Source of the DNA: Martelella limonii
GTDB lineage: Bacteria > Pseudomonadota > Alphaproteobacteria > Rhizobiales > Rhizobiaceae
Direction: 5' to 3'
Length of the DNA: 64,000 bases
NCBI RefSeq assembly: GCF_013344475.1
Contig: NZ_JABUOU010000004.1
Coordinates: forward strand, 271,286-335,285
The notes under the pieces were generated by a model, which was not told where the DNA came from, did no database searches, and saw only the letters and a program-made list of their open reading frames with translations. The stretch's first letter is position 1, and each line of letters opens with the position of its first letter. Below are positions 11,986 to 28,715 of this stretch, piece after piece. The position numbers were made by a program, and so were the translations under genes.

Positions 11986-12049
11986 AAATGTCCATCGGGA
12001 AAGCGTGTTCGAGGAGGCACGCTTTCCGCACTATCCGTGGGAGGAAACC

Positions 12050-13705: not shown

Positions 13706-13728
13706 TCGCCGATCTCAGACATTGCTGA

Positions 13729-13757
13729 TGCCCGCTCCCTTCAGGGGCGGGCATTTT
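13729..13757. terminator. Intrinsic terminator between GMC and AraC genes
   Basis: TGCCCGCTCCCT and AGGGGCGGGCA form a GC-rich hairpin with one bulge, followed by TTTTC on the plus strand. It ends the plus-strand aldehyde dehydrogenase-GMC transcript just before the opposing regulator gene's stop. Confidence 0.8.
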
Positions 13758-13778
13758 CATGCATGGCGCGGCCGCTGG

Positions 13779-14723
13779 TCAGGAATTCCTCCGCAGCGTA
13801 CCGGGCGCATGGCCAAAGCGCGTGCGGAACACGCGATGGAAATGAGACAGATCATTGAAGCCCGCCTCAAACGCAATCTCAGCGACGTTGCGCTCGGGCG
13901 CCGCCAGCAATTCGCGTTTTGCCCGCATCAGACGCGCGTCCTGGAACACTTCCGTGACCGTTTCGCCGGCTGCCGCGAAAATCCTCTGTACCGACCGCCG
14001 CGACATCGACAGATCGCTGGCAAGCGCGTCGAGATCGTATTGCGTCTTTCCGGCGTTCATCTCGATCAGGGTCCGCGCCCGCGCCAGCCGTTCAGAGGCG
14101 CGCGCATCGAAAGCCGGCACCTCCAGCTCCCGGCAGCGGACATAGGTCGCAAGCAACTCGACAAGCGTATCAGCCAGCTTGGTCACCGCGGCCTGATCAG
14201 CGGTGATCATGCGCACGAGAACTGCCTCCAGCGCGGTCGAGAGCGGATCGTGCGGATCGATCGGCAGCCCGCCAATGCAGGAACCGCGCAGACGGCGCAA
14301 TGTTTCATCGCGCGGCAGATGGACCGAGACCTTGCGCGACAGTCCACCCTTGTAGCGGAACACCGAGGGAAAGGCGGAATCGACGAGGTGAAAACTTCCC
14401 GGACGCAGAAGCGTTTCCGTTTCGCCATGGCAAATCAGGCTTTCGCCGCTTTCCTGATAGATCAGGAAGAGATGCTTGGCGGGATCGTGCCGGATCATCG
14501 CTGCATCGCGGCAGACGGAATCCACCTCCGTGGCGACGACAGCGGCCTTGAACAGGCCAAAATCCCGCATCTCGATGGCGCCGGTGAAGGTGTCGCTGCC
14601 CTCGTGGGCAACAAGCTCGAACCGCCCGCAAACCCTGACCAGGGCTTCGCGCGCCGCTTCCACGTTCACGGGCACGGCTGCGGAAAACGCCCCGCCCGTG
14701 CCGACGGCCAAAGGCTGTGACAT
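13779..14723 (-). CDS. AraC-family transcriptional regulator (FeaR-like)
   Basis: This 314-aa regulator has an N-terminal AraC-binding-like sensor half, in the style of FeaR-type proteins, and two C-terminal helix-turn-helix motifs: DLDALASDLSMSRRSVQRIF and VAEIAFEAGFNDLSHFHRVF. Regulators of this type in other bacteria switch on aldehyde and amine oxidation genes, which fits the convergent aldehyde dehydrogenase-GMC pair. It is also divergent from the ABC operon that starts about 640 bases away, so it could act on either side. A direct assignment is not possible from sequence. Confidence 0.85.
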   Translation of the reverse strand: MSQPLAVGTGGAFSAAVPVNVEAAREALVRVCGRFELVAHEGSDTFTGAIEMRDFGLFKAAVVATEVDSVCRDAAMIRHDPAKHLFLIYQESGESLICHGETETLLRPGSFHLVDSAFPSVFRYKGGLSRKVSVHLPRDETLRRLRGSCIGGLPIDPHDPLSTALEAVLVRMITADQAAVTKLADTLVELLATYVRCRELEVPAFDARASERLARARTLIEMNAGKTQYDLDALASDLSMSRRSVQRIFAAAGETVTEVFQDARLMRAKRELLAAPERNVAEIAFEAGFNDLSHFHRVFRTRFGHAPGTLRRNS

Positions 14724-15099: not shown

Positions 15100-15114
15100 T
15101 TGCACATATGTGCA
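15100..15114. promoter_or_regulatory. Operator-like motif copy 2 (best palindrome)
   Basis: TTGCACATATGTGCA contains the perfect 14-base palindrome TGCACATATGTGCA. It shares TTGCAC and TGTG with the other two copies and is the best candidate for a primary operator. Confidence 0.55.
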
Positions 15115-15185
15115 TAATTTTTTCACTAGCGCCCTTTGTTTTACAAAAAGAATATCTTTTTCATATATTTAAATCTCAATAGTTA

Positions 15186-15200: not shown

Positions 15201-15358
15201 GTTTTAAATTTTTTCTCTTTGACACCCCTTAAAATTGCTGCGACCATGGGCACCACTTCGTCGGTCCACAACCGGGTGAGCGTCAATGATGCAAGGGAGT
15301 GCATCGATCTCATTCGAACAAATGACCTGTGGAATCCGGCACTCATGGGAGGAGAGAC

Positions 15359-15409
15359 ATGAAACGGATCAACTTACCGCAACCGCTTGCGCATTCAGGG
15401 TGCGCGTAA
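15359..15409 (+). CDS. 16-codon leader or remnant ORF coupled to the permease
   Basis: ATG 15359 has an excellent ribosome site (GGGAGGAGAGAC) and encodes MKRINLPQPLAHSGCA. Its stop TAA shares its last A with the permease start (TAATG), so ribosomes could pass directly to the permease. The start context matches that of the second binding-protein gene (GGGAGGAGAGGAAAGACATGAAACGG), which suggests a remnant of a former binding-protein gene whose body was deleted. A purpose-built leader peptide is the alternative. Confidence 0.5.
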   Translation: MKRINLPQPLAHSGCA

Positions 15410-17241
15410 TGAGCAATGCTGCGGATTCCATCGGCCGAACGGCCGCTTCAAGCTGGACCACGAGGCTGAAATACCGGACGCGGATCGCCATGCGAGAGCC
15501 GACGACCCTGATCGGCCTGCTCATGGCACTTCTTTTCACCTACCTGATCGTCGTTCCGATTATCTCGATCCTGCTCGACGCTGTGCAGACCCAGTTCGGC
15601 GATGCCCGGCGCACCGGCACCGCCGTCGGCGAGTGGACCGGCTATTACCTGCACAGGACCTTCTTCTCGCCCGTCGCCCGCGACATGTTCTGGGAGCCTT
15701 TGCAGAACACGCTCAGCGTCGCCTTTGGCGCGATCGTCGTCTCCGTCATCGTCGGCGGCATCCTCGCCTGGCTGATCAGCCGCACAGACATGTTTGCCCG
15801 GCGCTGGTTCGCAACCGCGCTGATCGTTCCCTACATGCTGCCGGCCTGGACCTTCGCGCTGGCCTGGACCACGCTTTTCAAGAACCGCACGGTCGGCGGC
15901 CAGCAGGGCTGGCTTGAGGCCATGGGTTTTTCGCCGCCGGACTGGCTGGCCTATGGCCAGGTGCCGATCACTGTCATCCTGGCGCTGCACTATACGCCCT
16001 TCATCATCCTTCTGTTCGGCAGCGCGCTGCGCCGCTTCGACAGCCAGCTCGAGGACAGCGCACGGATGCTCGGCGCAAGCCGCGGCCGGATTGCGTGGTC
16101 GATCATCTTGCCGCTGATGAAGCCCGCGCTGATCTCGGCCATCGTGCTGATCTTCGCCAAATGCCTCGGCGAGTTCGGTGTTGCCTATGTGCTGGGGCTG
16201 CCTGTGAAGTTCGACGTGCTTGCCACCTCGCTTTATCGCAATCTCGGCTCGCGCCAGACGGGCGTTGCCGGCGTGCTGGCCGCCTCGATCATGATCCTCG
16301 GCATCATGACGCTGCTGATCGATGCCTATCTGATCCGCGAGGCCCGCAGGTTCGTCACCGTCGGCTCCAAGGGATCGATGAACCGCCTGAGCCGGTTGCG
16401 CGGCATGCGGCTGCCGGCAACCGGCTTTGCCGCCTTCATCTTCCTCATCAGCGTCGGACTGCCGGTGCTGACCCTGTTCCTGTCGACCATCATGAATGTC
16501 CCTGCGCGTTTCACCTGGGACAATTTCACGCTCGACTACTGGCTTGGGACAAACCTCGACACCGTCGCGCTGCAACAGGGCATTCTGCTGACGCCAGAGC
16601 TTTGGAACGCTGCGTGGAACACCTTGTGGATCGTCGGTTCCGCATCGGTCGTGTCGGGTCTCTTGGGCCTGCTCGTCGGCTACGCCGTGGTGCGCACGCC
16701 GCTGCGTCCGCTCGGAAGCTTTCTCAGGCAGGTGACCTTTTTCCCCTATCTGGTGCCGGGCATCGCCTTCGCTGCCGCGTATCTCTCGCTGTTTGCCGTG
16801 CAGCGCGGACCGATACCGGCGCTTTACGGGACCATGGCAATCCTGATCCTGGCGCTGATTGCCGACCAGATGCCCTATGCCTCGCGCGCCGGCATTTCGG
16901 CGATGATGCAGCTCGGCAAGGAGCCGGAGGAGGCAGCCCAGGTCGCCGGATCGAGCTGGTTCCATCGCATGACCCGCATCGTGGTGCCGATCCAGAAGGG
17001 GTCGCTGGTAACCGGCGTGCTGCTGCCGTTCATCTCGGGCATCAAGGGCCTCAGCCTGTTCGTCGTGCTGGCCGTGCCCTCGACCGACGTGCTGACGACC
17101 TATTCGCTGCGGCTCGTCGACTACAACTACACCCAGGCCGCCAATGCGGTGGTCCTGATCGTCGCGGGGCTCGCCTATTTCGGCACGCTCGCCGCACAGA
17201 AACTCACCAAGACAAATCTCGCCGAAGGCCTGGGAGGGTAA
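15409..17241 (+). CDS. ABC transporter permease, two fused membrane domains (AfuB/FbpB-like)
   Basis: This 610-aa inner-membrane protein contains two BPD-type permease domains in one chain. Each half carries an EAA-type coupling loop: LEDSARMLGASRGRIAWSII and PEEAAQVAGSSWFHRMTRIV. About twelve membrane helices are visible. The start at 15409 (MSNAADSIG) is chosen because it overlaps the leader ORF stop. The frame is open back to 15286, but nothing there looks like a start with a ribosome site. Fused permeases of this kind serve ferric, sugar-phosphate and related type I importers. The downstream phosphatases favour a phosphorylated organic solute. Confidence 0.9.
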   Translation: MSNAADSIGRTAASSWTTRLKYRTRIAMREPTTLIGLLMALLFTYLIVVPIISILLDAVQTQFGDARRTGTAVGEWTGYYLHRTFFSPVARDMFWEPLQNTLSVAFGAIVVSVIVGGILAWLISRTDMFARRWFATALIVPYMLPAWTFALAWTTLFKNRTVGGQQGWLEAMGFSPPDWLAYGQVPITVILALHYTPFIILLFGSALRRFDSQLEDSARMLGASRGRIAWSIILPLMKPALISAIVLIFAKCLGEFGVAYVLGLPVKFDVLATSLYRNLGSRQTGVAGVLAASIMILGIMTLLIDAYLIREARRFVTVGSKGSMNRLSRLRGMRLPATGFAAFIFLISVGLPVLTLFLSTIMNVPARFTWDNFTLDYWLGTNLDTVALQQGILLTPELWNAAWNTLWIVGSASVVSGLLGLLVGYAVVRTPLRPLGSFLRQVTFFPYLVPGIAFAAAYLSLFAVQRGPIPALYGTMAILILALIADQMPYASRAGISAMMQLGKEPEEAAQVAGSSWFHRMTRIVVPIQKGSLVTGVLLPFISGIKGLSLFVVLAVPSTDVLTTYSLRLVDYNYTQAANAVVLIVAGLAYFGTLAAQKLTKTNLAEGLGG

Positions 17242-17244
17242 GCG

Positions 17245-18360
17245 ATGCCGGGAATTACGCTGAAGAATATCAAGAAGAGCTACGGCGCCTATGAGGCGAT
17301 CCATCACCTGGATCTTGCCGTCGCGGACGGAGAATTCCTGTGCCTTCTGGGGCCCTCGGGCTGCGGCAAGACCACAACGCTCAGGATGATCGCGGGGCTC
17401 GAAAACCTGTCCAGCGGTGAGCTCAAAGTGGGCGATCGCGTCGTCGATTGCCCCGAGACCGCAACCTTCATCGCGCCGGAAAAGCGCGGCATGGGCCTGG
17501 TGTTCCAGAGCTACGCGCTCTGGCCGCATCTGACCATCGAGCAGAATGTCGAATTCGGCCTGAAGCTGCGCAAGGTCGCAAAGGCCGAGCGTCAGAAGCG
17601 CACCGCCGAGGTGATGGAGGCGCTCGGCATCGGCAAATACGGCAAGCGTTATCCGTCCCAGCTTTCGGGCGGACAGCAGCAGCGCGTGGCGCTTGCACGA
17701 ATGCTGGCCGTCAACCCGAGCGTCCTGTTGCTCGATGAGCCGCTGTCGAACCTCGATGCCCGACTACGCCTCGAAATGCGCGCGGAGTTGAAGCGGATCC
17801 ACGAGCAGTTCTCAACCACCATCGTCTTCGTCACCCATGACCAGTGGGAAGCGATGACGCTTGCCGACACGATCGCGGTGATGAACGAAGGCACGCTGCA
17901 GCAGCTTGGCTCGCCCGACGACATTTACGAACGGCCCGCAAACCGCTTCGTCGCGGAATTCGTGGGTTCGCCTCCGATCAACATCCTCGACTTCCAGAAA
18001 GAGGATGAGCTGGTCCAGAACCTCAAGCGCTTCCTTTCGCGACGCCACCCGGAGATCAAGGCCATCGGCTCGGTCGGCATCCGGCCGGAAGCGATATCAC
18101 TCGTCCACGGCAAGGATGACCTTGCCGACAGCGACTTCGGCGCACCGGCGCGGGTTGCCGCGATCCTGCCCACAGGCGGAAGCTGGATAATCGAGCTCGA
18201 GACCGGCAACGAGGTGATTTTCATGAACACCCATGTCGCGCCCGCCGTGCGCGAGGGCGAGCGCGCGTATTTCCGCGTTCAGGCCCGCGCACTCAACGTC
18301 TTCGATGCCAAGGGCGACCGGATACACGCGGCAGACCAGGTTCTGGCCGCCGCGGCGTGA
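17245..18360 (+). CDS. ABC transporter ATP-binding protein (FbpC/AfuC/PotA type)
   Basis: This 371-aa ATPase powers the permease encoded just upstream, three bases away. Walker A is GPSGCGKT (residues 36-43), the signature LSGGQ (140-144), Walker B LLLDEP (161-166), and the switch His is in FVTHDQWEAM. The C-terminal 130 residues form a TOBE-type regulatory domain (VGIRPEAISL). All catalytic motifs are intact. The ribosome site GGGAGGG lies within the permease stop region, implying coupled translation. Confidence 0.93.
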   Translation: MPGITLKNIKKSYGAYEAIHHLDLAVADGEFLCLLGPSGCGKTTTLRMIAGLENLSSGELKVGDRVVDCPETATFIAPEKRGMGLVFQSYALWPHLTIEQNVEFGLKLRKVAKAERQKRTAEVMEALGIGKYGKRYPSQLSGGQQQRVALARMLAVNPSVLLLDEPLSNLDARLRLEMRAELKRIHEQFSTTIVFVTHDQWEAMTLADTIAVMNEGTLQQLGSPDDIYERPANRFVAEFVGSPPINILDFQKEDELVQNLKRFLSRRHPEIKAIGSVGIRPEAISLVHGKDDLADSDFGAPARVAAILPTGGSWIIELETGNEVIFMNTHVAPAVREGERAYFRVQARALNVFDAKGDRIHAADQVLAAAA

Positions 18361-18388
18361 ACCACATTTTTCTAGGGAGGAGAAAGAG

Positions 18389-19510
18389 TTGAACACAAAT
18401 CATAAAACCGTCACCGCGCTCCTGGCATTGCCCATCGCTTTCGCGCTTTGCGGCGCGGTCAAAGCCGATGACGGCACTTTCGACCTCGACGCGCTCATCG
18501 AGGCCGCCCGTGCAGAGCCGCCGATCACAGTCTATGCAGTGACCGGCAAGATCGTCGGCACCGCCGAGGCCTTCACCGCGCTCTACGGCGTCGAGGCCAC
18601 CGGCAAGAAGGTGAACGAGGCCGATCAGATCGACCTGATGATCCGCGAATACCAGGCCGGCAATATCGTTGGCGATCTGAGCATTGCTGCCGATGTCGGC
18701 TCGATCATGGGGCAGCTGATCCCGGAGGGCATTGTCACCAGCTGGCTTCCGCCGGATCTGGCAGCCAACATCCCCGAGGGGCAGCGGGACCCGCTGGTGG
18801 TGGTTTCCGACCCCCATGTCTGGGCCTATTCCACAGAGGCCTATGACGCTTGCCCGGTCGACAATATCTGGGCGCTGACCGAGCCGGAATGGCACGGCAA
18901 GATCGCCATGCTCGACCCGCTGGTGAAGCCGAACTACGCCGACTGGTTCAACCAGCTCGAAACCCATCACGACGACGCAATGGCAGCCGCCTATGAGGCC
19001 CATTTCGGCAAGGCGATCGATCGGTCGGAAGAAAGCGCGACCCAGCAATGGGTGCGGATGTACGCGGAAAACGCGCCGCTTCTCGGCGACAGCACCTCGG
19101 TTGCAGAAGCCGTGGGCGCAGTCGGCCAGAAGGAGCCTTTCTTCGGCATCATGTCCACCGCCAAGTTCCGCTCCAATGAGAGCGGCGAAACCGCGCTCGG
19201 CATCTGCGGCAGCTTGCAGCCCTTCTCCGGCTGGCTCTATCCCGGTCTCGCCGTGATGGCCGCCGATACGGACAGCCCGAACGCAGCGAAACTGTTTGTC
19301 CATTACCTGCTCAGCGAGGACGGCATCGCGCCGATGTCGGTCGACGGCAAGGTCTCGTCGAACAGCGCCGTTCCTGCAAACCCGGAAGAAGTGTCGGGCG
19401 TGGCTGACTTCATGGACGACCTGATGGTCTACGACACCGCGACTGCGGCCGACGATTTCGACAAGCGCCAGGATTGGCAGGATTTCTGGCGCATCCACTA
19501 CAGCCGGTAA
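18389..19510 (+). CDS. Periplasmic binding protein 1 of ABC importer
   Basis: This is an extracellular solute-binding protein of the FbpA-like (iron-type) fold, 373 aa, delivering ligand to the fused permease. The start is TTG 18389 (MNTNHKTVTALLALPIAFAL): GGGAGGAGAAAG lies just before it and a signal peptide follows at once. The mature protein begins near DDGTFDLDALIEAARAE. No adjacent Tyr-Tyr pair of the ferric-binding type is present. A METHHDDAMAAAYEAHFGK-like segment (ETHHDD) is shared with paralogue 3. It ends in DWQDFWRIHYSR, a tail common to all three paralogues. Ligand is inferred to be a phosphorylated organic compound. Confidence 0.88.
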   Translation: MNTNHKTVTALLALPIAFALCGAVKADDGTFDLDALIEAARAEPPITVYAVTGKIVGTAEAFTALYGVEATGKKVNEADQIDLMIREYQAGNIVGDLSIAADVGSIMGQLIPEGIVTSWLPPDLAANIPEGQRDPLVVVSDPHVWAYSTEAYDACPVDNIWALTEPEWHGKIAMLDPLVKPNYADWFNQLETHHDDAMAAAYEAHFGKAIDRSEESATQQWVRMYAENAPLLGDSTSVAEAVGAVGQKEPFFGIMSTAKFRSNESGETALGICGSLQPFSGWLYPGLAVMAADTDSPNAAKLFVHYLLSEDGIAPMSVDGKVSSNSAVPANPEEVSGVADFMDDLMVYDTATAADDFDKRQDWQDFWRIHYSR

Positions 19511-19515
19511 CGGCC

Positions 19516-19536
19516 GGCCCGCGGGAGGAGCGGGCC
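19516..19536 (+). other. Intercistronic hairpin after binding protein 1
   Basis: GGCCCGC (19516-19522) pairs with GCGGGCC (19530-19536) around the loop GGGAGGA. It begins five bases after the stop and has no T-run, so it is more likely to protect the upstream mRNA 3' end than to stop transcription. Confidence 0.6.
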
Positions 19537-19567
19537 GCAATCATTTCAACGGGAGGAGAGGAAAGAC

Positions 19568-20677
19568 ATGAAACGGTTTGTTCTGAAATCCACCGGCGCT
19601 CTCGCGCTTTGCCTGATGGCAATGGGCGCCCACGCCGAGGAATTCGACCTCGACGCACTGATCGAGGGGGCGAAGGGAGAGCCTCAGCTGACTGTGTTCG
19701 ACAGCACCGGCAAGATCGTGGCGATGGCGGAGAATTTTTCCGGAAAATACGGCGTTGACGCTGTCGGCCAGAAGGTCAAGGCCCATGCGCAGCTCGAGAT
19801 GATGGCGCGCGAGGCGATGGCCGGAAACGTGCAGGGCGACGTGTCGATCATTTCGGATGCGCCGGCGGCGATCGCGGAACTGCTGCCGAATGACTTCGCC
19901 GTCAGCTGGGTACCGCCGGATCTCGCCGGTGTGATCGAGGCGCGCTATCAGGACCCGCTCGTGGTGGTCACCATGGCCAATGTCTGGACCTACAACACCG
20001 AGCTCTACGACAGCTGCCCCGTCTCGAACGTCTGGGAACTGACCCAGCCGGAATGGCACGGCAAGGTCGCCATGCAGGATCCCCTGAACAAATCGGTCTA
20101 CACCGACTGGTTCAACCAGATGGAATCCCATGGCAACGACCAGCTCGCCGCTGCCTATGAGGACTTTTTCGGCAAACCGATCGACACATCCGAGCAGAGT
20201 GCCACGGAACAATGGGTCGCCATGCTTGCGGCCAACGCACCGCTTCTCGGCGGCTCCGACAGCAATGCGGCAGAGGCTGTCGGCGCACCGGGCCAGAAGG
20301 AAGGCTTCATGGGCCTGATGAGCTCCGCCAAGTACCGCGACAATGCCGACGCCGACTACAAGCTCGGCCTTTGCGACGGGATCGAACCATGGCTGGGCTT
20401 CACCAATGCCGGCGTCGGTCTGATTGCCAAGGGCACGGACAGTCCGAACGCGGCCAAGCTGTTCATTCATTACGTGATGACGGCCGAGGGCATCGCCCCC
20501 CAGGCAGATGACGGCAAGAAATCCGCCAATACCGAGGTCGCCCTTCCTGACGACGAGCCGTCCGGCATCGGCGCCGCCTGGGATCAACTGCTGACCTACG
20601 ACCTGTCCACCGCGATGGAAGATTACGACACCCGTCAGGACTGGCAGGATTTCTGGCGTCTGAACTACGCCCGCTGA
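19568..20677 (+). CDS. Periplasmic binding protein 2 of ABC importer
   Basis: This is the second tandem paralogue, 369 aa, with signal peptide MKRFVLKSTGALALCLMAMGAHA and mature start EEFDLDALIEGAKGEPQ. The motif DSTGKIVAMAENFSGKYGVDAVGQKVK is nearly the same as in paralogue 3. The region that reads HHD in paralogues 1 and 3 is HGN here (MESHGNDQLAAAYEDF), which may alter ligand choice. The ribosome site is GGGAGGAGAGGAAAGAC. The tail DWQDFWRLNYAR is conserved. Confidence 0.88.
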   Translation: MKRFVLKSTGALALCLMAMGAHAEEFDLDALIEGAKGEPQLTVFDSTGKIVAMAENFSGKYGVDAVGQKVKAHAQLEMMAREAMAGNVQGDVSIISDAPAAIAELLPNDFAVSWVPPDLAGVIEARYQDPLVVVTMANVWTYNTELYDSCPVSNVWELTQPEWHGKVAMQDPLNKSVYTDWFNQMESHGNDQLAAAYEDFFGKPIDTSEQSATEQWVAMLAANAPLLGGSDSNAAEAVGAPGQKEGFMGLMSSAKYRDNADADYKLGLCDGIEPWLGFTNAGVGLIAKGTDSPNAAKLFIHYVMTAEGIAPQADDGKKSANTEVALPDDEPSGIGAAWDQLLTYDLSTAMEDYDTRQDWQDFWRLNYAR

Positions 20678-20684
20678 GCGAACA

Positions 20685-20709
20685 GGCCGGGCGGACAAAC
20701 CGCCCGGCC
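20685..20709 (+). other. Intercistronic hairpin after binding protein 2
   Basis: GGCCGGGCGG (20685-20694) pairs perfectly with CCGCCCGGCC (20700-20709) around the loop ACAAA. It has no T-run and starts eight bases after the stop, the same placement as the hairpin after paralogue 1. Confidence 0.65.
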
Positions 20710-20731
20710 ATCACAAGGGAGGAGAACCGAG

Positions 20732-21850
20732 ATGATGAACATGACGCATATACGAACGGGCATGACCGTCCTGACGCTGACGGCCGCCATTGCCGCGCCG
20801 GCGCTGGCGCAGGATTTCGATCTCGACGCGCTGGTCGAGGCCGCAAGAAGCGAACCACAGCTGACCGTCTATGACAGCACCGGCAAGATCGTGGAAATCG
20901 TGGAAAATTTCGCCGGAAAATATGGGGTGGACGCCATCGGCCAGAAGGTGAAGGCGACGTCGCAGCTCGAAATGGTGATCCGGGAATCGCAGGCCGGAAA
21001 CGTCCAGGGCGACGTTCTGATGATCACCGACGCGCCGGCAGCGCTTGCCCAGCTCATCCCCGAAGACTTCGTCTACAGCTATCTGCCGCCCGACATGGCG
21101 GACGTGATCCCCGAAAGCTATCAGGATCCGCTGACCGCGACCACGAATGCCAATGTGTTCGCCTACAACACCGAGGTCTATGACGCCTGCCCGGTCGACA
21201 ATATCTGGGCGTTGACGGATCCTGAATGGAACCGGCGTTTCGCCATGATCGATCCCTTGTCCAAGTCGAGCTACACAGACTGGTTCAGCCAGATGGAAAG
21301 CCATCATGACGAGGCGGTGCGAGCGGCCTACGAGGCCCATTACGGCAAGCCGCTTGAAACCGATTTCGACAGCGCGACCAAGGCGTGGGTCGCAGCGATC
21401 GGCGCAAATGCGCCGCTGGTGACGGAAGGGGACGACAACACCTCAGCCGCCGTCGGCGCGCCCGGCCAGGACGCACCGTTCTTCGGACTGATGTCGTCTG
21501 CCAAGTTCCGCGACGTCGAGGACAAGGGCCACAAGATGGCGATCTGCGATACGCTCGAACCCTGGGTCGGCTGGACCTATTCCAAGCTCGCCCTGATCGC
21601 TTCCGGTACCGACAGCCCGAACGCCGCCAAGCTTTTCATCCACTACATCCTGACCGAGGAAGGCATTGCGCCGCAGATGGTCGATGGCAAGGTGCCGACC
21701 AACACCACGATCGCGATGCCTGCCGATGAGCCCTCCGGCATTGTCGACCTGTGGGACAACCTGCAGGCCTACGATTCCAGGACCGGACTGGACGATTGGG
21801 ACAGCCGCCAGGACTGGCAGGATTTCTGGCGCATCCACTACAGCCGCTGA
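20732..21850 (+). CDS. Periplasmic binding protein 3 of ABC importer
   Basis: This is the third tandem paralogue, 372 aa. A signal peptide ends in IAAPALAQ, and the mature protein starts DFDLDALVEAARSEPQ. It keeps DSTGKIVEIVENFAGKYGVD and MESHHDEAVRAAYEAHYGK, and ends in DWQDFWRIHYSR. It is closest to paralogue 2 in the N-terminal lobe. ATG 20732 follows GGGAGGAGAACCGAG; the internal ATGs 20735 and 20741 are weaker choices. One permease and one ATPase with three receptors suggests a transporter fed by several related ligands. Confidence 0.88.
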   Translation: MMNMTHIRTGMTVLTLTAAIAAPALAQDFDLDALVEAARSEPQLTVYDSTGKIVEIVENFAGKYGVDAIGQKVKATSQLEMVIRESQAGNVQGDVLMITDAPAALAQLIPEDFVYSYLPPDMADVIPESYQDPLTATTNANVFAYNTEVYDACPVDNIWALTDPEWNRRFAMIDPLSKSSYTDWFSQMESHHDEAVRAAYEAHYGKPLETDFDSATKAWVAAIGANAPLVTEGDDNTSAAVGAPGQDAPFFGLMSSAKFRDVEDKGHKMAICDTLEPWVGWTYSKLALIASGTDSPNAAKLFIHYILTEEGIAPQMVDGKVPTNTTIAMPADEPSGIVDLWDNLQAYDSRTGLDDWDSRQDWQDFWRIHYSR

Positions 21851-21866
21851 TCTCCTCGGCCGCCAC

Positions 21867-21893
21867 GCCCCGGGCTCCCGCTGAGCCCGGGGC
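21867..21893 (+). other. Intercistronic hairpin after binding protein 3
   Basis: GCCCCGGGCT (21867-21876) pairs with AGCCCGGGGC (21884-21893), a perfect 10-bp stem with a 7-base loop and no T-run. It lies 17 bases after the stop of the last binding-protein gene and before the first phosphatase gene. Confidence 0.65.
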
Positions 21894-21917
21894 CATGACA
21901 ACGAAGGACGCTTTCGA

Positions 21918-22787
21918 ATGACTGCCATCGCCGACACAGAGATCCCCTCGCCCGCCCGCCTTCGCGCGGTGGCGGAAAACGTGGCCCGGGCCGCGGGTTC
22001 GCCCCTGACTGCGGTGTTTCGCGCCGACATGACCGTGGACTACAAGGCCGATCTGCACGATCCGGTAACGGTGCATGACAAGCGGACCGAAGCGACAATC
22101 CGAAAGCAGTTGCTGGCCGAGGTTCCCGGATCCGCCATCGTCGGCGAGGAAGGTGGTGAAATCGGCAGCGGCCCGGTCAAATGGTATGTCGATCCGATCG
22201 ACGGCACCTCGAACTTCGCCGCCGGCCTCGCCTTCTGGTGCGTCTCGATCGGCGCCGTGGTCGATGGCCGGATCGTCGCCGGCGCGGTCTACGACCCGAT
22301 GTCCGACACGATGTTTTCCGCCGACAGCGACGGCGCCTGGCTTGATGGCGCGCCGCTCATTTGCCCTGAGGCCCGCGAGGAAGCGCGCGCGACGCTGATC
22401 ACCGGCTATCCCGTTCAGCGCGACTTCCGCCTGGAAGGTCGCGAGGCGGCGCTTGCCGGGCTCGGCGATCTGATCTCCGCCTTTTCGTGCCTGCGCCGCC
22501 CCGGCAGCGCCGCCCTCAGCCTCTGCCATGTCGCGGCTGGCTGGGCGGATGCGGCGGCCGGCTTCGGCGTCAACGCGTGGGACGTCACCGCCGCAATCCT
22601 GATTCTGGAACGCGCCGGCGGCAGCTATCGCCCCCTGACACTCGGCAAGCAGCCCGACGGAGCGCCGGCCCATCATTGCCCGGGTTACGTCGCACACGGG
22701 CCGGGCGCCCGTTTTTCAACCCTCGACCGCGTCGCGGACGGCGTGGATTCGCGTCGTCGCGCAGGCGCCATGGCCCCTGCCCTGTGA
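21918..22787 (+). CDS. Inositol-monophosphatase-family phosphatase 1
   Basis: This is a Mg2+/Li+-sensitive phosphatase of the IMPase superfamily, 289 aa, which hydrolyses small phosphomonoesters in the cytoplasm. Metal-binding motifs are GEEGG (76-80) and WYVDPIDGTSNF (89-100, with Asp92, Asp95 and the DGT loop), and the C-terminal metal Asp is in NAWDVTAAIL. It is 67 bases after the last binding protein and 70 before a second IMPase. The natural substrate could be an inositol phosphate, a sugar phosphate or another monoester; the ABC context points to an imported one. It is only distantly similar to its neighbour, so this is not a recent duplication. Confidence 0.9.
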   Translation: MTAIADTEIPSPARLRAVAENVARAAGSPLTAVFRADMTVDYKADLHDPVTVHDKRTEATIRKQLLAEVPGSAIVGEEGGEIGSGPVKWYVDPIDGTSNFAAGLAFWCVSIGAVVDGRIVAGAVYDPMSDTMFSADSDGAWLDGAPLICPEAREEARATLITGYPVQRDFRLEGREAALAGLGDLISAFSCLRRPGSAALSLCHVAAGWADAAAGFGVNAWDVTAAILILERAGGSYRPLTLGKQPDGAPAHHCPGYVAHGPGARFSTLDRVADGVDSRRRAGAMAPAL

Positions 22788-22857
22788 CGGACGGGCCCTT
22801 CACAAACATCAAAACACTGGCGCCCCGACGCCACCTCTTAAATGGAGTCTCTCCTGC

Positions 22858-23697
22858 ATGAGCAAAGCAGCCACAGACAAGCAAATCGACGATCGCGCCG
22901 ACCTTTGCCTTTCCCTTGCCCGAAGCGCGGGCCGGATCGCGCTCGACGGTTTTCGCCGCCGAGAATCCGAAGAGATCGCGATGAAGGGATCGCAGGATTT
23001 CCTGACCGAGACCGACGCCGCCGTCGAGGCGCATCTGAAGTCGCGCCTTGCTGAGGCCTTGCCCGAGGATGAATTCCTCGGTGAGGAAACCGGCGGCGCG
23101 GTGAGCGGGCGTTCGGTCTGGGTTGTCGATCCGATCGACGGAACCGCCAATTTCGCCCGCGGCATTCCGCATTTCTGCATTTCCATCGCCTATGTCCGCG
23201 ACGGCATCACCGAGATCGGCGCAATCTTCGCCCCGGCGACGAACGAACTCTGGTTTGCCCGGCGCGGCGCAGGGGCAAGCTGCAACGACCGGCCGATCCG
23301 GGTTGCGGGAACCCGCAGCTTCTCGGCCGCCTGCCTGGAACTCGGGTGGAGCAATCGACGCCCGCAGAAGGACTATATCACGGTCATGAACCGGCTGCTG
23401 GATCACGGCGCCAATGTCCGCCGCGGCGCCTCGGGGGCGCTCGGGCTTGCCTATGTCGCCGATGGCCGCTCCGACGGCTATGCCGAGCTTCACATGAATG
23501 CCTGGGATTGCCTGGCCGGTCTGCTGCTGGTCGAGGAGGCCGGCGGACGGGTCAGCGACCTGCCGGAAGATGGTCTCGGCCACGGAGGCCCTGTGCTGGC
23601 CGTCGTGCCGGCCCTGGCCCCGGAAGTCAGCGCGGCGACCGGCATCATGCTGGCATCGCTTTCGAATGAAACTGATCGCGCAAGGATGATCGCATGA
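22858..23697 (+). CDS. Inositol-monophosphatase-family phosphatase 2
   Basis: This is the second IMPase-superfamily enzyme, 279 aa. Motifs are KGSQDFLTETD (43-53), GEETGG (75-80), WVVDPIDGTANF (88-99) and NAWDCLAGLLLVEEAGG near the C-terminus, so all metal ligands are in place. It resembles classic SuhB-type inositol-1-monophosphatase more than its neighbour does. The ribosome site is GGAGTCTCTCCTGC. It overlaps the following phosphatase gene by four bases (ATGA). Two IMPases in one operon suggest two phosphate positions or two related substrates. Confidence 0.9.
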   Translation: MSKAATDKQIDDRADLCLSLARSAGRIALDGFRRRESEEIAMKGSQDFLTETDAAVEAHLKSRLAEALPEDEFLGEETGGAVSGRSVWVVDPIDGTANFARGIPHFCISIAYVRDGITEIGAIFAPATNELWFARRGAGASCNDRPIRVAGTRSFSAACLELGWSNRRPQKDYITVMNRLLDHGANVRRGASGALGLAYVADGRSDGYAELHMNAWDCLAGLLLVEEAGGRVSDLPEDGLGHGGPVLAVVPALAPEVSAATGIMLASLSNETDRARMIA

Positions 23698-24347
23698 ACC
23701 AGGTCCGCCCCATGCCCAAATCGCCCCACTATGACCGTCCCGAAATCAGCCTGATCGAAGAGCGGCTTGAGCCCTATGGCGTCGCCCTCTATGTCGGCGG
23801 CCGCGAGGGCATGTCGAACCTGCCTCTCTTGCGCGCGCACAACATCACCACCGTGGTGAACTGCGCCGTCAATCTCGACATCAACGTCGTCGATGCCCCT
23901 GACCCGTCTATGGAAGACGGTCACCTGACCTATGGCCACGGCGCCTATCGCTATTACAAGCTCGGCCTCGTCGACGGCGCGGGCAACGCGGATACCATGG
24001 TTCTCGCCGGTTATTACCAGCTGCTTGGCGCGCTGTCGCAAATCCTGCCGAACCGGCCTTCGTATCCGCTGCGCGAGCGCGGCAACATCCTGGTGAACTG
24101 CCGTGGAGGACGCAGCCGCTCGGTGGCGCTCGTGGCTTTGCTGCTGCACAAGCAGATGCCCGATCGCTACCCGACGCTCGACGCCGCGCTCGACCATGTC
24201 CGCACAAGGCGCGAACTGCGCCCCGACGAATGGTTCGAGGCGCCGAAGCCGATGCTCGTCGAGGCGACGCGCAAGGCCTCGGCCTGGATCGACCGGATCG
24301 GCCACCGCGACCCCGAGCACCCGGACAATGACGGCCACGCCCAATGA
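23694..24347 (+). CDS. Cysteine-based (dual-specificity-type) phosphatase
   Basis: This 217-aa protein has the PTP-superfamily loop CRGGRSRS: nucleophile Cys136 and Arg142, followed by Ser143. An upstream Asp in the stretch YKLGLVDGAGNAD is a candidate general acid. It looks like a compact dual-specificity phosphatase without extra domains. In an operon of small-molecule phosphatases it more probably acts on a phosphorylated sugar or polyol than on proteins, but protein tyrosine dephosphorylation cannot be ruled out. It is coupled by ATGA overlaps at both ends. Confidence 0.85.
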   Translation: MNQVRPMPKSPHYDRPEISLIEERLEPYGVALYVGGREGMSNLPLLRAHNITTVVNCAVNLDINVVDAPDPSMEDGHLTYGHGAYRYYKLGLVDGAGNADTMVLAGYYQLLGALSQILPNRPSYPLRERGNILVNCRGGRSRSVALVALLLHKQMPDRYPTLDAALDHVRTRRELRPDEWFEAPKPMLVEATRKASAWIDRIGHRDPEHPDNDGHAQ

Positions 24348-25924
24348 TCCGCATCGCCGTCCTGTCCGATCCGCATCTGCATGACGTCCGCTTCGGCAGC
24401 ACGGCGGCCGAGGCGCCGTTCGTGCGCTCGCTTTCCGACAGCCTGCATTCCACCCGCATCTTCAACGAGAGCGAACCGGCGTTGCGCGCGGCTCTCGATG
24501 CCATCGCTGCCGAGAAGATCGGGCTGTGCATCATCGCCGGCGACCTGACGGATGATGGCCAGCCCGCGAACTGGCAGGCGGCGGCTGCCCTGCTGACCGA
24601 CTATTCCCGACGCCATGGCATCCGCTTCTTCGCCACGCCCGGCAACCACGACCAGTGGGCGATGACCGGCAAGCCGCTGGTGAAAAACGTCGTCGACCCA
24701 GACGGCAATGTCGAAGCGCGGGCAGGCCACGGCGCCCCGCCCCGAAAAGGCGCGCGACTCTGCCCCGGCATGCGCATGGTCGGCTACGATGAGGTGCCGG
24801 CTTATGCCGCCCGCTTTGGCTATCACCCTCAGCCCTCCGATCTGCACTGGGAAACTCCCTTCGGCACAACGCCCGAGCTGGAGTACCGCAAGGCGCATTT
24901 CGCCTCGCCGCAGGGCGGCGGTGCCTTCGTCAGCGACCTCTCCTATCTGGTCGAGCCGATCGAGGGGCTGTGGCTGCTTTCCATAGACGCCAATGTCTAT
25001 CTGCCGGACGGGTCCGGCGGCCATGTCGATTGCAGCAAGGAGGGCTGGAATGCAACGGTGCGGCACAAGCCCTATTTGCTGGGCTGGATGCGCGATGTCG
25101 CCCGCCGGGCCCGGGCCGGAAACAAGCGGCTGGTCGCCTTCTCGCATTATCCCGTAGCGGACATATTCCATGGCTGCACCCCGGAGCTGGAAACCCTGCC
25201 CGGCTCCCGCGCCGGCGCACGGCGCATGCCGGCACCGGATGTGGCTGCCGCCATCGCCGCCACCGGCCTTCCGCTCCATCTCAGTGGCCACTGGCACGTG
25301 GATGCCACCGCTGCCGTCGGCGGGCTGGTGAACGTCTCCGTTCCATCGACGGTCGCATATCCAGCCGGCTGGAAATGTCTCGAAATCAGCGCGGAAGGCA
25401 CGCATGTTCTGGAGCGCGCGGTTCATGATGCCCCCGGCTTCGACGCCTGGTTCGCCCGCTATGCCGCCGAGGCCGATCGGACAGGACGGGAGAGTTCAAG
25501 TCTGGCTGTCGCGGATTACTGGGAGTTTCTGGATCGCCATTTCGAGACGGTCGTCCTTGAGCGACGCCTGACTGAAGACTGGCCAGCCCGGATGCGGGCC
25601 ATGGTGAAGACCATGCGCCTGCCCGATATCGCGGGCCTTCTTTCGCTCCCGCAGACAGCACTGCCCGATATCGCCCTTTCCGATATCTTCGTCGACTGGT
25701 ACCGGCTGCGCGAGGCCGGCGGTGGCGCTGCCGCCGGCCTGTCGACGGAACGCCGTGCGCTCTACGCCGGGCTCGCGCAAAGCGCAGCCGGGATGACTTT
25801 TCCGGGTGGTTCCGACGCCGCCATTCTGGCGGTCTTCCTGCGCACGCTCGGCCTTATCCTGGCCGGCGATGATGGGAAACGGGCCGCTCTCGGCCGGCTG
25901 AGGGAGGTCTCCGTCCCGTGCTAG
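24344..25924 (+). CDS. Calcineurin-like metallophosphoesterase
   Basis: This 526-aa two-metal phosphoesterase has every family motif: SDPHLHD (8-14), GDLTDDG, GNHDQW, FSHYPVADIF and SGHWHVDA. The layout resembles CpdA/GpdQ-type phosphodiesterases but with a C-terminal extension of about 190 residues that I do not recognise. A phosphodiesterase would supply monoesters for the IMPases and the cysteine phosphatase. Its stop overlaps that of the opposing LacI gene within CTAG (25921-25924). Confidence 0.87.
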   Translation: MIRIAVLSDPHLHDVRFGSTAAEAPFVRSLSDSLHSTRIFNESEPALRAALDAIAAEKIGLCIIAGDLTDDGQPANWQAAAALLTDYSRRHGIRFFATPGNHDQWAMTGKPLVKNVVDPDGNVEARAGHGAPPRKGARLCPGMRMVGYDEVPAYAARFGYHPQPSDLHWETPFGTTPELEYRKAHFASPQGGGAFVSDLSYLVEPIEGLWLLSIDANVYLPDGSGGHVDCSKEGWNATVRHKPYLLGWMRDVARRARAGNKRLVAFSHYPVADIFHGCTPELETLPGSRAGARRMPAPDVAAAIAATGLPLHLSGHWHVDATAAVGGLVNVSVPSTVAYPAGWKCLEISAEGTHVLERAVHDAPGFDAWFARYAAEADRTGRESSSLAVADYWEFLDRHFETVVLERRLTEDWPARMRAMVKTMRLPDIAGLLSLPQTALPDIALSDIFVDWYRLREAGGGAAAGLSTERRALYAGLAQSAAGMTFPGGSDAAILAVFLRTLGLILAGDDGKRAALGRLREVSVPC

Positions 25925-26940
25925 CCCATGCGCACAGTCTTGCGCCAGACCGGAAGCGCCTGGAAGGCGGAAACGCTGCCGCTGGTCTCCGAAGTCAGGA
26001 TCTCGGCAATACGCGCAACCATCTCATCCATCGGCTGGCGGAACGTGGTCAGCTCATAGCCCGACCAACGCGCCTGCGGCACGTCATCGAAGCCGATCAC
26101 GCAGAGATCGCGCGGGATCTCGATGCCGAATATTTTGCGCGCTGCGTCAATGAAGCCAAAAGCCAGAAGATCGGTGACGCAAAACACGCCATCGGGCGGG
26201 TTGGACCGCCCCAGCAGGACCCGCGCGGACTCCAGGCCGGTGTCATAGCTGGTGGGGCCGATCCGGACGACGTCGATCTCGATGCCTACCTCGGCAGCGG
26301 CCTCGGCAAAGGCGCTTTCGCGCGTGGTCATGGACGAAGTACGCGCCTGCGACGATACACAGGCCAGCCGCACGCAGCCTGCCCGCCGCAGCAGCGCCAG
26401 TGCTTCGCGACAGGCTGTGGTATTGTCGATGCGGATCCGCTCGACGCCCTCGGCATCGTCGTCCCGGTTGACCAGCACGACGCGCTGACCGTTCGACAGG
26501 CAACTCTGCACGAGCTTCGCCGGCGGAGACCCGCTGAGCACCACCGAAGCTTCCGCTCGGAAATGCAGGCTTTGCCGCAACGCCTGGCTGACACTATCGT
26601 CATCGCCGCCGGTATTGATGATCATCGCCACCTTGCCGTGCAACTGGAGCTGCCGCGTCACCTTTTCGATCAACGCGCTGTGGTAGGGCTGGCCGATATC
26701 GGCGGCGATCAGGCACACGATCTTGGAGGGCTCGCCGACCAGGCCCCGGGCGAGGAGATTGGCGTGATAGCCCAATTCCTCTGCCGCTTTCATCACCTTG
26801 CGCCGCGTGGCGGGCGCCACGCTGCCGGCGCCGGAAAAGGTGCGCGACACGGCCGAGCGGGAAACCCCTGCGCGTTCGGCCACCTCGTTGGCGCTGACAT
26901 AGGAGACCCGGTCACCGCGCGGCATGGTCGGTTTCGTCAT
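25921..26940 (-). CDS. LacI-family transcriptional regulator
   Basis: This 339-aa repressor has an N-terminal helix-turn-helix (VSANEVAERAGVSRSAVSRTFS) followed by a LacI hinge (GSVAPATRRKV) and a periplasmic-binding-like sensor (SKIVCLIAADIGQPYHSALIE through CVIGFDDVPQARWSGYELTT). The start ATG 26940 (MTKPTMPRGDRVSYV) is chosen as normal for the family; the frame extends back to 27012. It is convergent with the phosphatase operon and divergent from the Na/Pi gene, so it likely senses the imported sugar or polyol. A degenerate copy of the operator-like motif lies 20 bases before its start. Confidence 0.9.
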   Translation of the reverse strand: MTKPTMPRGDRVSYVSANEVAERAGVSRSAVSRTFSGAGSVAPATRRKVMKAAEELGYHANLLARGLVGEPSKIVCLIAADIGQPYHSALIEKVTRQLQLHGKVAMIINTGGDDDSVSQALRQSLHFRAEASVVLSGSPPAKLVQSCLSNGQRVVLVNRDDDAEGVERIRIDNTTACREALALLRRAGCVRLACVSSQARTSSMTTRESAFAEAAAEVGIEIDVVRIGPTSYDTGLESARVLLGRSNPPDGVFCVTDLLAFGFIDAARKIFGIEIPRDLCVIGFDDVPQARWSGYELTTFRQPMDEMVARIAEILTSETSGSVSAFQALPVWRKTVRMG

Positions 26941-26959
26941 GCACAGCCTTTGAAAATAG

Positions 26960-26974
26960 TTGCAAGAATGTTCA
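26960..26974. promoter_or_regulatory. Degenerate operator-like motif before the LacI gene
   Basis: TTGCAAGAATGTTCA matches 11 of 15 positions of motif copy 2 (TTGCACATATGTGCA), keeping TTGCA, ATGT and CA. It lies between the LacI gene and the divergent Na/Pi gene, where a repressor could control both. Confidence 0.4.
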
Positions 26975-27062
26975 CTCAACAGCACCGTAATGCCTTGCCC
27001 GGCGCCGCTCAAGCGAAAGCTGGGGCGAGCCTGTTACCTGCCGATCGGAGAGGAGGCGCGGC

Positions 27063-28715
27063 GTGAACTCGACCATCCAGCTCATCGACCTTCTGGGCGC
27101 CGCCGCTCTGGTTCTCTGGGCCCTGCGCATGATCAAGTCTGGCATCCTGTCAGGCTTTGGCGCTTCGTTGCGGCAAGGGATCGCGAAGGGTACCGGCAAC
27201 CGGTTTCTGGCGGCGATCTCGGGCATGCTCGTCACGATCGCGGTGCAATCTTCGACCGCGACCGCGGTGATCACCGGCTCCTTCGTCTCGCGCAATATCA
27301 TTGCGCCGCGCATGGCACAGGCGGTGTTGCTTGGAGCCAACCTCGGCACCGCGTTGACCGCCGCAATCCTGGTGCACGACCTGCATTGGCTGTCGCCGGC
27401 GTTGATCCTCTGCGGTTTCGTAACCCATGCCCGCAGCCGATTGCCGCGCGGGCGCGGCATCGGAAGAGCGATGATCGGGCTCGGCCTGATGCTCCTCGCC
27501 CTGGGGTTGCTCAGCGCAGCCACGGAACCGCTGCGCGAAGCCGAGGTCACCGCCGCCGTCCTTTCTGCGCTGGATCAGGGGCTGATCTTCGGTCTGCTGC
27601 TGGCCGCCGTTCTGGCCTTCGCGTCGTCCTCAAGCCTTGCCGTTGTGTTATTTGTCTCGATCCTTGCCGAAAACGGCGCCCTCACGCCGGCGCTGGTGCT
27701 GGTGCTGGTGGCCGGCGCCAATCTGGGCGGGGCGCTGCCGCCCTGCCTGGCCGTCGCCGACGAGGGGCCGAATGCACGGCGGCTCGTTCGCTGCAACCTG
27801 GCTGTGCGGGGTGTCGGGGCATTGCTGGTGTTGCTCACCGCCGGCATTGCAGGCCCCTATCTCTCGGAGTTTCTGCCGTCCGGCGGTCGTCTTGCCATTG
27901 CCGCACATCTTGCCTTCAACACCATCCTGCTGGTGCTGTTCCTGCCGCTGCTCGGCCCTCTCGACCGCCTCGCGCGTCTGATATGGCCTGATCCCGCGCG
28001 GGAAAGGGGCGAAGCCTCCTATCTCGACGACGCCGCACTCGGCACGCCCGCCCTCGCCCTTGGCGGGGCAGCACGCGAGGTGCTTCGCATCGGCGACAAT
28101 GTGGGCTTGATGATGGAGCTCAACCTGCGATCCCTGCTGGTTGACGATCCCGATGCCGCGCGCAAGATCGCCCAGCTTGATGACCGCGTCGATGCCGCCC
28201 TCACCGACTTGAAGCTCTATTTTGCCCGGCTCGGGCGCACGGAACTGAACGACGGGGAAAATGCCCGCATGCGCGAGATCCTGTCCTATGCGATCAATCT
28301 GGAACATGTGGGGGATATCATCGACCGGGACCTTTCGGAAATGGCGCGCAAGAAGGCGGACCGGCAGGTGAAATTCTCAACCGCCGGCGAGGAGGAAATC
28401 GGCGAGCTCTATCGCAAGACGCTGCTCAACCTCGAACTGGCGCAATCGGTTTTCCTCAGCCGCGACGTCAATCTTGCCCGGCGCCTGACAGCCGAGAAGG
28501 TCCATGTCCGCCAGATCGAGGAACGCTCGCAGAAGAAGCATATCGAGCGCCTTCGGAACGGGCAGCCGGAAACGCTCGGCTCGACCTCGCTTCATCTGGA
28601 CATTTTGCGCGACCTGAAGCGCATCAACGCGCATATCGCGGCCGTGTCCTATCCGATCCTGTCCGATGCGGGAGAGCTGTCGGCAAGCCGGGTGATCTCG
28701 CTGCAAGCCCAATGA
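27063..28715 (+). CDS. Na/Pi-cotransporter-family protein with PhoU-like tail
   Basis: This 550-aa membrane protein has two inverted Na/Pi repeats: AVQSSTATAVITGSF (about residues 60-75) and FASSSSLAVVLFVSI (about 182-196) are the QSS-type signature loops. A cytoplasmic PhoU-like helical domain occupies about residues 340-540. The start is GTG 27063 with GGAGAGGAGG upstream. Family members move phosphate; the E. coli relative YjbB exports it. Next to an operon that releases phosphate inside the cell, export of excess phosphate is an attractive role, though uptake is possible. Confidence 0.88.
   Translation: MNSTIQLIDLLGAAALVLWALRMIKSGILSGFGASLRQGIAKGTGNRFLAAISGMLVTIAVQSSTATAVITGSFVSRNIIAPRMAQAVLLGANLGTALTAAILVHDLHWLSPALILCGFVTHARSRLPRGRGIGRAMIGLGLMLLALGLLSAATEPLREAEVTAAVLSALDQGLIFGLLLAAVLAFASSSSLAVVLFVSILAENGALTPALVLVLVAGANLGGALPPCLAVADEGPNARRLVRCNLAVRGVGALLVLLTAGIAGPYLSEFLPSGGRLAIAAHLAFNTILLVLFLPLLGPLDRLARLIWPDPARERGEASYLDDAALGTPALALGGAAREVLRIGDNVGLMMELNLRSLLVDDPDAARKIAQLDDRVDAALTDLKLYFARLGRTELNDGENARMREILSYAINLEHVGDIIDRDLSEMARKKADRQVKFSTAGEEEIGELYRKTLLNLELAQSVFLSRDVNLARRLTAEKVHVRQIEERSQKKHIERLRNGQPETLGSTSLHLDILRDLKRINAHIAAVSYPILSDAGELSASRVISLQAQ

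Follow-up and report, generated by a model that had tools for sequence, protein, structure and literature searches.

The 64,000-nucleotide window analyzed here comes from contig C29 of the 4.54 Mb genome of Martelella limonii (G000). At positions 15406-28715, it contains a locus that a first-pass annotation had described as encoding an ATP-binding cassette (ABC) permease, an ATPase, three binding proteins, four phosphatases, a LacI regulator, and a Na/Pi transporter. This complete predicted gene set was open at that place, and Pfam supported each role except that of one phosphatase, which scored just under the cut-off but has an intact CX5R loop. From gene content and conservation, we consider it probable that the locus is a LacI-controlled ABC importer for inositol phosphates, through which lower inositol phosphates or inositol phosphodiesters would be imported intact, dephosphorylated inside the cell, and fed to inositol catabolism.

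The fused two-domain permease gene (15406..17241, plus strand) encodes two PF00528 stretches in one chain (81.8 bits). Its open reading frame (ORF) is open from 15286; we corrected the start to ATG 15406, the most likely one, because the Martelella relative aligns from there. The ATPase with a TOBE domain follows (17245..18360, plus; PF00005, ABC_tran 112.5 bits; PF08402), and then the periplasmic binding proteins SBP1 (18389..19510, plus), SBP2 (19568..20677, plus), and SBP3 (20732..21850, plus). The start of SBP1, also corrected, is most likely TTG 18389, with a likely ribosome-binding site read from the sequence. The three binding proteins are sisters, about 53% identical to one another, and all match SBP_bac_11 (PF13531; 35.9, 38.3, and 43.5 bits; cut-off 25). 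With a fused two-domain permease, an ATPase, and an FbpA-fold binding protein, the system belongs to the FbpA/AfuA-type binding-protein-dependent ABC importers.

The predicted structure of SBP2 was confident (AlphaFold2 pLDDT 92.7) and has the FbpA/AfuA/MctA fold, which as modelled leaves the ligand undecided. Among 53 aligned binding proteins, K49, K69, R257, and K317 were kept in 52-53, and the TGK loop T47-G48-K49 (51-52 of the 53) falls at the MctA mutated residues S26 and D28 in a profile alignment with assignment by eye. The sugar-binding residues of AfuA (His205, Asp206, and Glu229; PMC4546632) were not mappable on the window binding proteins, the sequences being too distant. The ATPase scored 366.9 bits against the UgpC-like NCBIfam model (cut-off 432), and no NCBIfam model matched the window binding proteins at E 0.001, so the locus does not qualify as a Ugp glycerol-3-phosphate importer. 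A 2-aminoethylphosphonate importer (PhnSTUV or PhnS2T2U2) was tried as a candidate and rejected, the permease reaching 145.9 bits against the TIGR03262 cut-off of 593.

Four phosphatase genes come next. Two encode enzymes of the inositol monophosphatase (IMPase) family, IMP1 (21918..22787, plus) and IMP2 (22858..23697, plus), which match Inositol_P (PF00459) with 163.6 and 192.3 bits, respectively (cut-off 27). The acidic metal-site residues of this family (motifs GEE, DPIDGT, and WD; E76, E77, D91, D94, and D217) were invariant in 43 of 43 aligned IMPases. In most loci with a single IMPase, IMP2 was its best match. The third gene encodes a CX5R dual-specificity-type phosphatase, DSP (23694..24347, plus), and the fourth a calcineurin-like phosphoesterase with a C-terminal extension, CALN (24344..25924, plus; PF00149 Metallophos, 50.5 bits; cut-off 21.5). 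The earlier description of four phosphatases of three folds is thus right as an assignment to sequence families. The genes of IMP2, DSP, and CALN overlap by 4 bp at each junction, which suggests translational coupling.

DSP scored 29.0 bits against DSPc (PF00782), below the gathering cut-off of 33.5, and so falls outside that Pfam family. It does belong to the CX5R superfamily: C136, R142, and D94 were present in all 31 aligned type-1 DSP sequences, that of the window included, and every position of the P-loop C136-RGGRS-R142 was invariant except G138, conserved in fewer than 90%. From its place, D94 would be the general acid. With a family profile, the nearest solved proteins are human VHR/DUSP3 (5e-13) and other DUSPs, and PTPMT1 appears at 5.8e-5. 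The basic residues at positions +1 and +4 of the loop recall those of PTEN and PTPMT1, which we take to act on very acidic small phosphates. PTP-like phytase (PF14566) was not among the Pfam matches of DSP at E 0.001 and had no match in the Martelella genome. An IMPase and a CX5R phosphatase form a single annotated protein of 479 aa in Klebsiella and 528 aa in Erwinia, with both Pfam domains checked on the Klebsiella one; this fusion ties the two activities together. A signal peptide was evident on the binding proteins and none on the phosphatases, as read from the sequences by eye. Since they differ in this way, the phosphatases probably act on imported material, and the import of a phosphorylated polyol followed by cytoplasmic dephosphorylation, as first proposed, is supported by this context.

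The remaining genes are a convergent LacI-family regulator (25921..27012, minus strand; PF00356, LacI 52.1 bits; PF13377) with the helix AGVSRSAVSRTF, and a Na/Pi cotransporter-family protein with PhoU domains (27063..28715, plus; PF02690, 120.9 bits; PF01895, 56.1 bits), a candidate exporter of inorganic phosphate (Pi). Just 5' of the operon (10579-14723) are ORFs resembling an aldehyde dehydrogenase and a GMC-type oxidoreductase, judged by eye, and an AraC regulator identified with Pfam. These were not found beside the operon in 37 other loci, except that the edge of L054 holds a match to the aldehyde dehydrogenase, at 30%.

The same gene order was sought in other genomes, and 38 loci with the permease type of the window (type 1) were compared by tblastn. 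These include the window and near-duplicates, two each of Sinorhizobium meliloti, Klebsiella, Litoreibacter, and Thioclava. The operon set recurs in Alpha- and Gammaproteobacteria, including S. meliloti pSymB. Permeases were 54-96% identical (49% in L056), and the closest relative found was the corresponding operon of Martelella mediterranea (78-96% for each protein). A binding protein was present in all 38 loci, and LacI in 34 (the contig of L027 ends before it). A Na/Pi match was found in 18, 16 of them inside the operon block, with L054 (partial) and L063 (in two pieces) outside it. The CX5R phosphatase and the IMPase each occurred in 35 of 38. Phosphatase genes that failed to stay with the transporter in relatives would have counted against the first-pass annotation; instead, they travel with it. 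Because most of the same genes recur in the 38 loci, the set is not a chance cluster. Its smallest phosphatase-bearing form, in G080, consists of permease, ATPase, one binding protein, LacI, and CX5R phosphatase, and the gammaproteobacterial form is a similar set plus one IMPase.

The type-1 system is rare. A type-1 CX5R phosphatase (>50% identity) was present in 5 of 297 genomes of the order, and the permease (E up to 1e-150) in 3/398 genomes of the phylum, 1/385 of the class, 2/194 of the order of G435, and 1/274 of the class of G435, each permease count including its own centre genome. The permease was also found in 83 plasmid records, 63 of them from Sinorhizobium or Ensifer. The divergent loci L053, L054, and L056 lack the CX5R phosphatase. 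Close importer relatives (60%) in L053 and L054 have no phosphatases, and those of L054 adjoin phosphonoacetate hydrolase and phosphonoacetaldehyde dehydrogenase genes; the importer family may therefore carry other organophosphorus compounds. A calcineurin-like homologue (37%) at L056:4427-6064 adjoins an importer of a third type, whose permease has about 740 residues, and similar importers occur with IMPase or HAD genes in L044 and L048 (Shinella and Rhizobium). A HAD-family phosphatase is inserted between the two IMPase genes of the G202 operon (L032:7684-8496).

The palindrome TTGCACANNTGTGCAA lies 5' of the permease and is common to related operons. The window copy, TTGCACATATGTGCAT (15100..15115, no strand assigned), is a putative LacI operator about 290 bp 5' of the permease ATG 15406 and 170 bp from the alternative ATG 15286; it is the sole exact 14-base core in the 4.54 Mb genome. 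Of 30 regions upstream of the permease, 10 contain the core exactly and 19 contain it with at most one mismatch, compared with means of 0.0 and 0.023, respectively, in base shuffles of these regions; the pattern was drawn from some of the tested regions, which are not independent, and L033 has only 43 upstream bases. Across 13 operon-bearing genomes there were 11 exact core sites (in eight of the genomes), all 11 at the operon, and the reversed control gave 0. The helix AGVSRSAVSR was common to 22 LacI proteins compared, with one A-to-T and one A-to-Q variant, and the palindrome would be the operator of this LacI.

The neighbours of the importer in related loci give indications of the substrate. 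Four phytase queries were used across the 38 loci. On four plasmids of Klebsiella pneumoniae, the operon is preceded by genes for a KdgM-type porin and for a histidine-type phosphatase (PhyK-like HAP), and the best match of this phosphatase in the PDB was the 3-phytase 2wnh. Vibrio sp. HDW18 has, 249 bp away and in divergent orientation, a gene for a MINPP-type enzyme (6rxd at 5e-70; 7zgf, a multiple inositol-polyphosphate phosphatase, at 9e-66). In G581, a beta-propeller phytase (PF02333, 231 bits) is apparently the second gene of a divergent unit. Wenxinia marina, which has a complete window-like operon, keeps a PF02333 remnant (82 bits, the middle of the domain missing) that starts 10 bp past the Na/Pi gene by ORF coordinates. 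The palindrome is within the divergent region common to the phytase side and the importer in Vibrio and G581, and between the phytase and permease genes in Klebsiella. The phytase carriers are scattered over the permease tree (four label changes for four rows). Beta-propeller phytases occurred in 3 of the 13 operon-bearing genomes and at the operon in two of these; by hand reckoning, with about 20 kb of 4 Mb counted as near, the chance of two of three lying there is about 1e-4. The substrate common to the three phytase types is inositol phosphate. A separate arrangement in Pseudoalteromonas (L087:3729-8990) has consecutive genes for a TonB receptor, a metallophosphoesterase, and a beta-propeller phytase, the importer being absent.

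Inositol catabolism genes were also found near some operons. In G242, the ends of iolCDEB and of the calcineurin-like gene are 569 bp apart, with scores above the NCBIfam cut-offs for iolC (723.7/600), iolD (951/715), iolE (380.5/290), and iolB (338.5/205). In two other genomes, G1172 and G202, these genes are 18-20 kb away: 20 kb from the operon in G202 and, in Wenxinia, 18 kb from the phytase remnant. An iolE over the cut-off was present in 10 of 13 operon genomes, that of the window included; in seven of the 10 it was on another contig or far off. The phytases and iol genes beside the importer in some relatives narrow the "sugar/polyol" substrate first suggested to inositol.

The sequences themselves show the gene content, the conserved IMPase and CX5R active sites, the fusion, the conserved neighbourhood, and the conserved palindrome; the operator role of the palindrome, the ligand, the order of the cuts, the effector, and Pi export are what we infer. 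Outside the cell, phytases or phospholipases would make lower inositol phosphates or diesters such as glycerophosphoinositol. A porin and one to three periplasmic binding proteins would capture these inositol esters or diesters, and the ABC importer would move them in intact. Once they are in the cytoplasm, their phosphates would be stripped by the CX5R phosphatase and the IMPase or IMPases, with the phosphoesterase as a candidate diesterase, a helper in the alphaproteobacterial clade of the window. The resulting myo-inositol would enter the iol pathway, and surplus Pi may exit via the Na/Pi-PhoU protein. Because it has iolE but none of three phytase families, the window genome would depend on products made by others.

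Several results weigh against an inositol phosphate substrate. A phytase was adjacent in just 5 of the 38 loci (four lineages), the other 33 giving no phytase match; among loci with a window-like complete operon, only Wenxinia had one, and that is a remnant. The three phytase families searched, PF00328, PF02333, and PF14566, gave no match in the window's genome, PF00328 was absent in all 12 operon genomes searched, and the beta-propeller phytase of G435 is far from its operon. Most plasmid-borne phytases have no importer: the permease occurred in 4/35 HAP, 1/13 MINPP-like, and 0/21 beta-propeller records, counts made by comparing organism tallies with the permease search (E up to 1e-150). The gene iolE is widespread in any case (100 of the order's 297 genomes have it), and the operon-bearing G080, G1161, and G1174 lack one over the cut-off. 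Iron and citrate binders also fit the binding-protein fold. No palindrome within two mismatches was found in 7 of 29 full-length upstream regions, including that of Wenxinia. The operator core also precedes a second kind of operon (type 2), which has no assigned substrate, being exact in L035-L041 (7/7).

The importer could instead carry sugar or polyol phosphodiesters such as glycerophosphoinositol or agrocinopine-like compounds, not phosphomonoesters, with CALN cutting the diester and the IMPase and CX5R phosphatase the monoester. We regard this as possible, though the less favoured explanation by some distance. The metal-site motifs of CALN were invariant in nine of nine aligned sequences, and its nearest solved relative by profile is Lmo2642 (2xmo), presumably a phosphodiesterase. 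In type-2 operons, the neighbour of the CX5R phosphatase is a hydrolase of the metallo-beta-lactamase fold (by Pfam in L037 only; similar ORFs elsewhere), and the agrocinopine acc operon is a precedent. CALN occurred in 25 of the 38 loci (the L056 copy adjoins a different importer, and that of L063 is split into three), none of them with an intact phytase; the diester-cutting step that the first-pass annotation had proposed is, like its Pi export, hypothetical. Since it is missing in all three intact-phytase lineages and in Thioclava, Erwinia, G435, G1161, Devosia neptuniae, and G080, CALN is not part of the core. Moreover, no glycerophosphodiester phosphodiesterase match was found with Pfam in the ten operon proteins scanned.

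That the locus imports hexose or other sugar phosphates in the manner of AfuABC or UhpT is improbable. The Klebsiella HAP is far nearer to 3-phytase (8.5e-82) than to Agp (just 4e-39), beta-propeller and MINPP phytases are, to our knowledge, not sugar phosphatases, intracellular dephosphorylation is unneeded for hexose phosphates, and iolCDEB is adjacent in G242. Least likely is a ferric iron or metal-chelate importer, as in the automatic annotation "iron ABC transporter permease": the iron ligands of FbpABC-type ferric importers are a conserved adjacent Tyr pair, no such pair occurs among positions at least 95% conserved in the 53 binding proteins, and phosphatases accompany the importer in 35 of 38 loci, where no search aimed at iron genes was made.

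An importer of inositol phosphates may have a wider setting. In Klebsiella L086 and L089, a cluster of LacI, IMPase, a major facilitator superfamily (MFS) transporter, and HAP phytase has no ABC importer, and carries the exact core just before the IMPase gene and a near-identical LacI helix (L086:4558-9149, where the transporter is annotated in three pieces, and L089:4535-9179, where it is whole). Given the shared operator and helix, phytase-linked loci with two unrelated transporters seem to be under a single type of regulator. The locus could be the first member of a bacterial regulon for the import of inositol phosphates, a proposal to which we give about even chances. In such a regulon, a dedicated ABC importer would provide intact uptake as a carbon and phosphorus source, and a LacI sensing an inositol derivative, with its own operator, would command interchangeable modules: three phytase types outside, an ABC or MFS transporter, CX5R, IMPase, and phosphoesterase enzymes inside, and iol below. 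If so, phytate breakdown products released by other organisms would sustain rhizobia such as S. meliloti.

Phytate is a main phosphorus store of plants and soil, it and other inositol phosphates make up much of the organic phosphorus in soil, and in the usual picture bacteria release the phosphate outside the cell. One source puts phytate at up to 50% of soil organic phosphorus in some soils (PMC5082522). Intact import, if true, would alter who gets the phosphate and make inositol phosphates a carbon source. It would also correct the "iron ABC transporter" annotation in symbionts such as Sinorhizobium. Such systems can be sought directly by their operator and gene set, and the question is testable in laboratory strains. 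In S. meliloti, SMb20155-8 is named in a published study as an ABC transporter operon among genes strongly up-regulated when ecpR1 expression is altered (PMC4414408). By gene count and position, the strain 2011 pSymB record being unannotated, SMb20155-8 is probably this importer, and SMb20157 and SMb20158 would be its binding proteins.

Among known systems, AfuABC of Actinobacillus is a hexose-phosphate importer whose AfuA was annotated for iron (PMC4546632). AfuABC and P5PAB (PMC8427247) are like this locus in combining an FbpA-fold binding protein with intact import of a phosphorylated metabolite, import here being predicted; the AfuABC parallel first drawn stands as a fold-level relationship of the binding protein, and nothing closer. 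The Klebsiella operon in L086 and L089 has the same operator, a near-identical LacI helix, an IMPase, a phytase, and an organophosphate-type transporter, but this transporter belongs to the MFS, resembles GlpT/UhpC/PgtP while scoring under all curated cut-offs, and no CX5R phosphatase is annotated. The agrocinopine acc operon of Agrobacterium imports an intact sugar phosphodiester by an ABC transporter, and a cytoplasmic diesterase and an IMPase-like phosphatase then act on it; its transporter and diesterase are taken to belong to families other than those of the window locus. Type-2 operons, ordered ATPase, binding protein, permease, metallo-beta-lactamase hydrolase, DSP, and LacI (L030 and L035-L041), follow the same logic, with CX5R phosphatases 32-36% identical in five aligned, but the permease is only about 25-27% identical, the hydrolase has a metallo-beta-lactamase fold, and no IMPase match exceeded the score limit. 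The Martelella genome itself holds a type-2 importer operon (L030, G000:C1, about 1007115-1013595), where the operator core was not found within one mismatch; the type-2 domains were checked in L037. In the open-licence literature, which leaves most subscription journals outside, we found neither a bacterial ABC importer described as carrying inositol phosphates nor this gene combination, in agreement with the first-pass annotation. All parts of the locus belong to known families; the combination and the proposed substrate appear to be new, and in kind it would be a binding-protein-dependent organophosphate importer.

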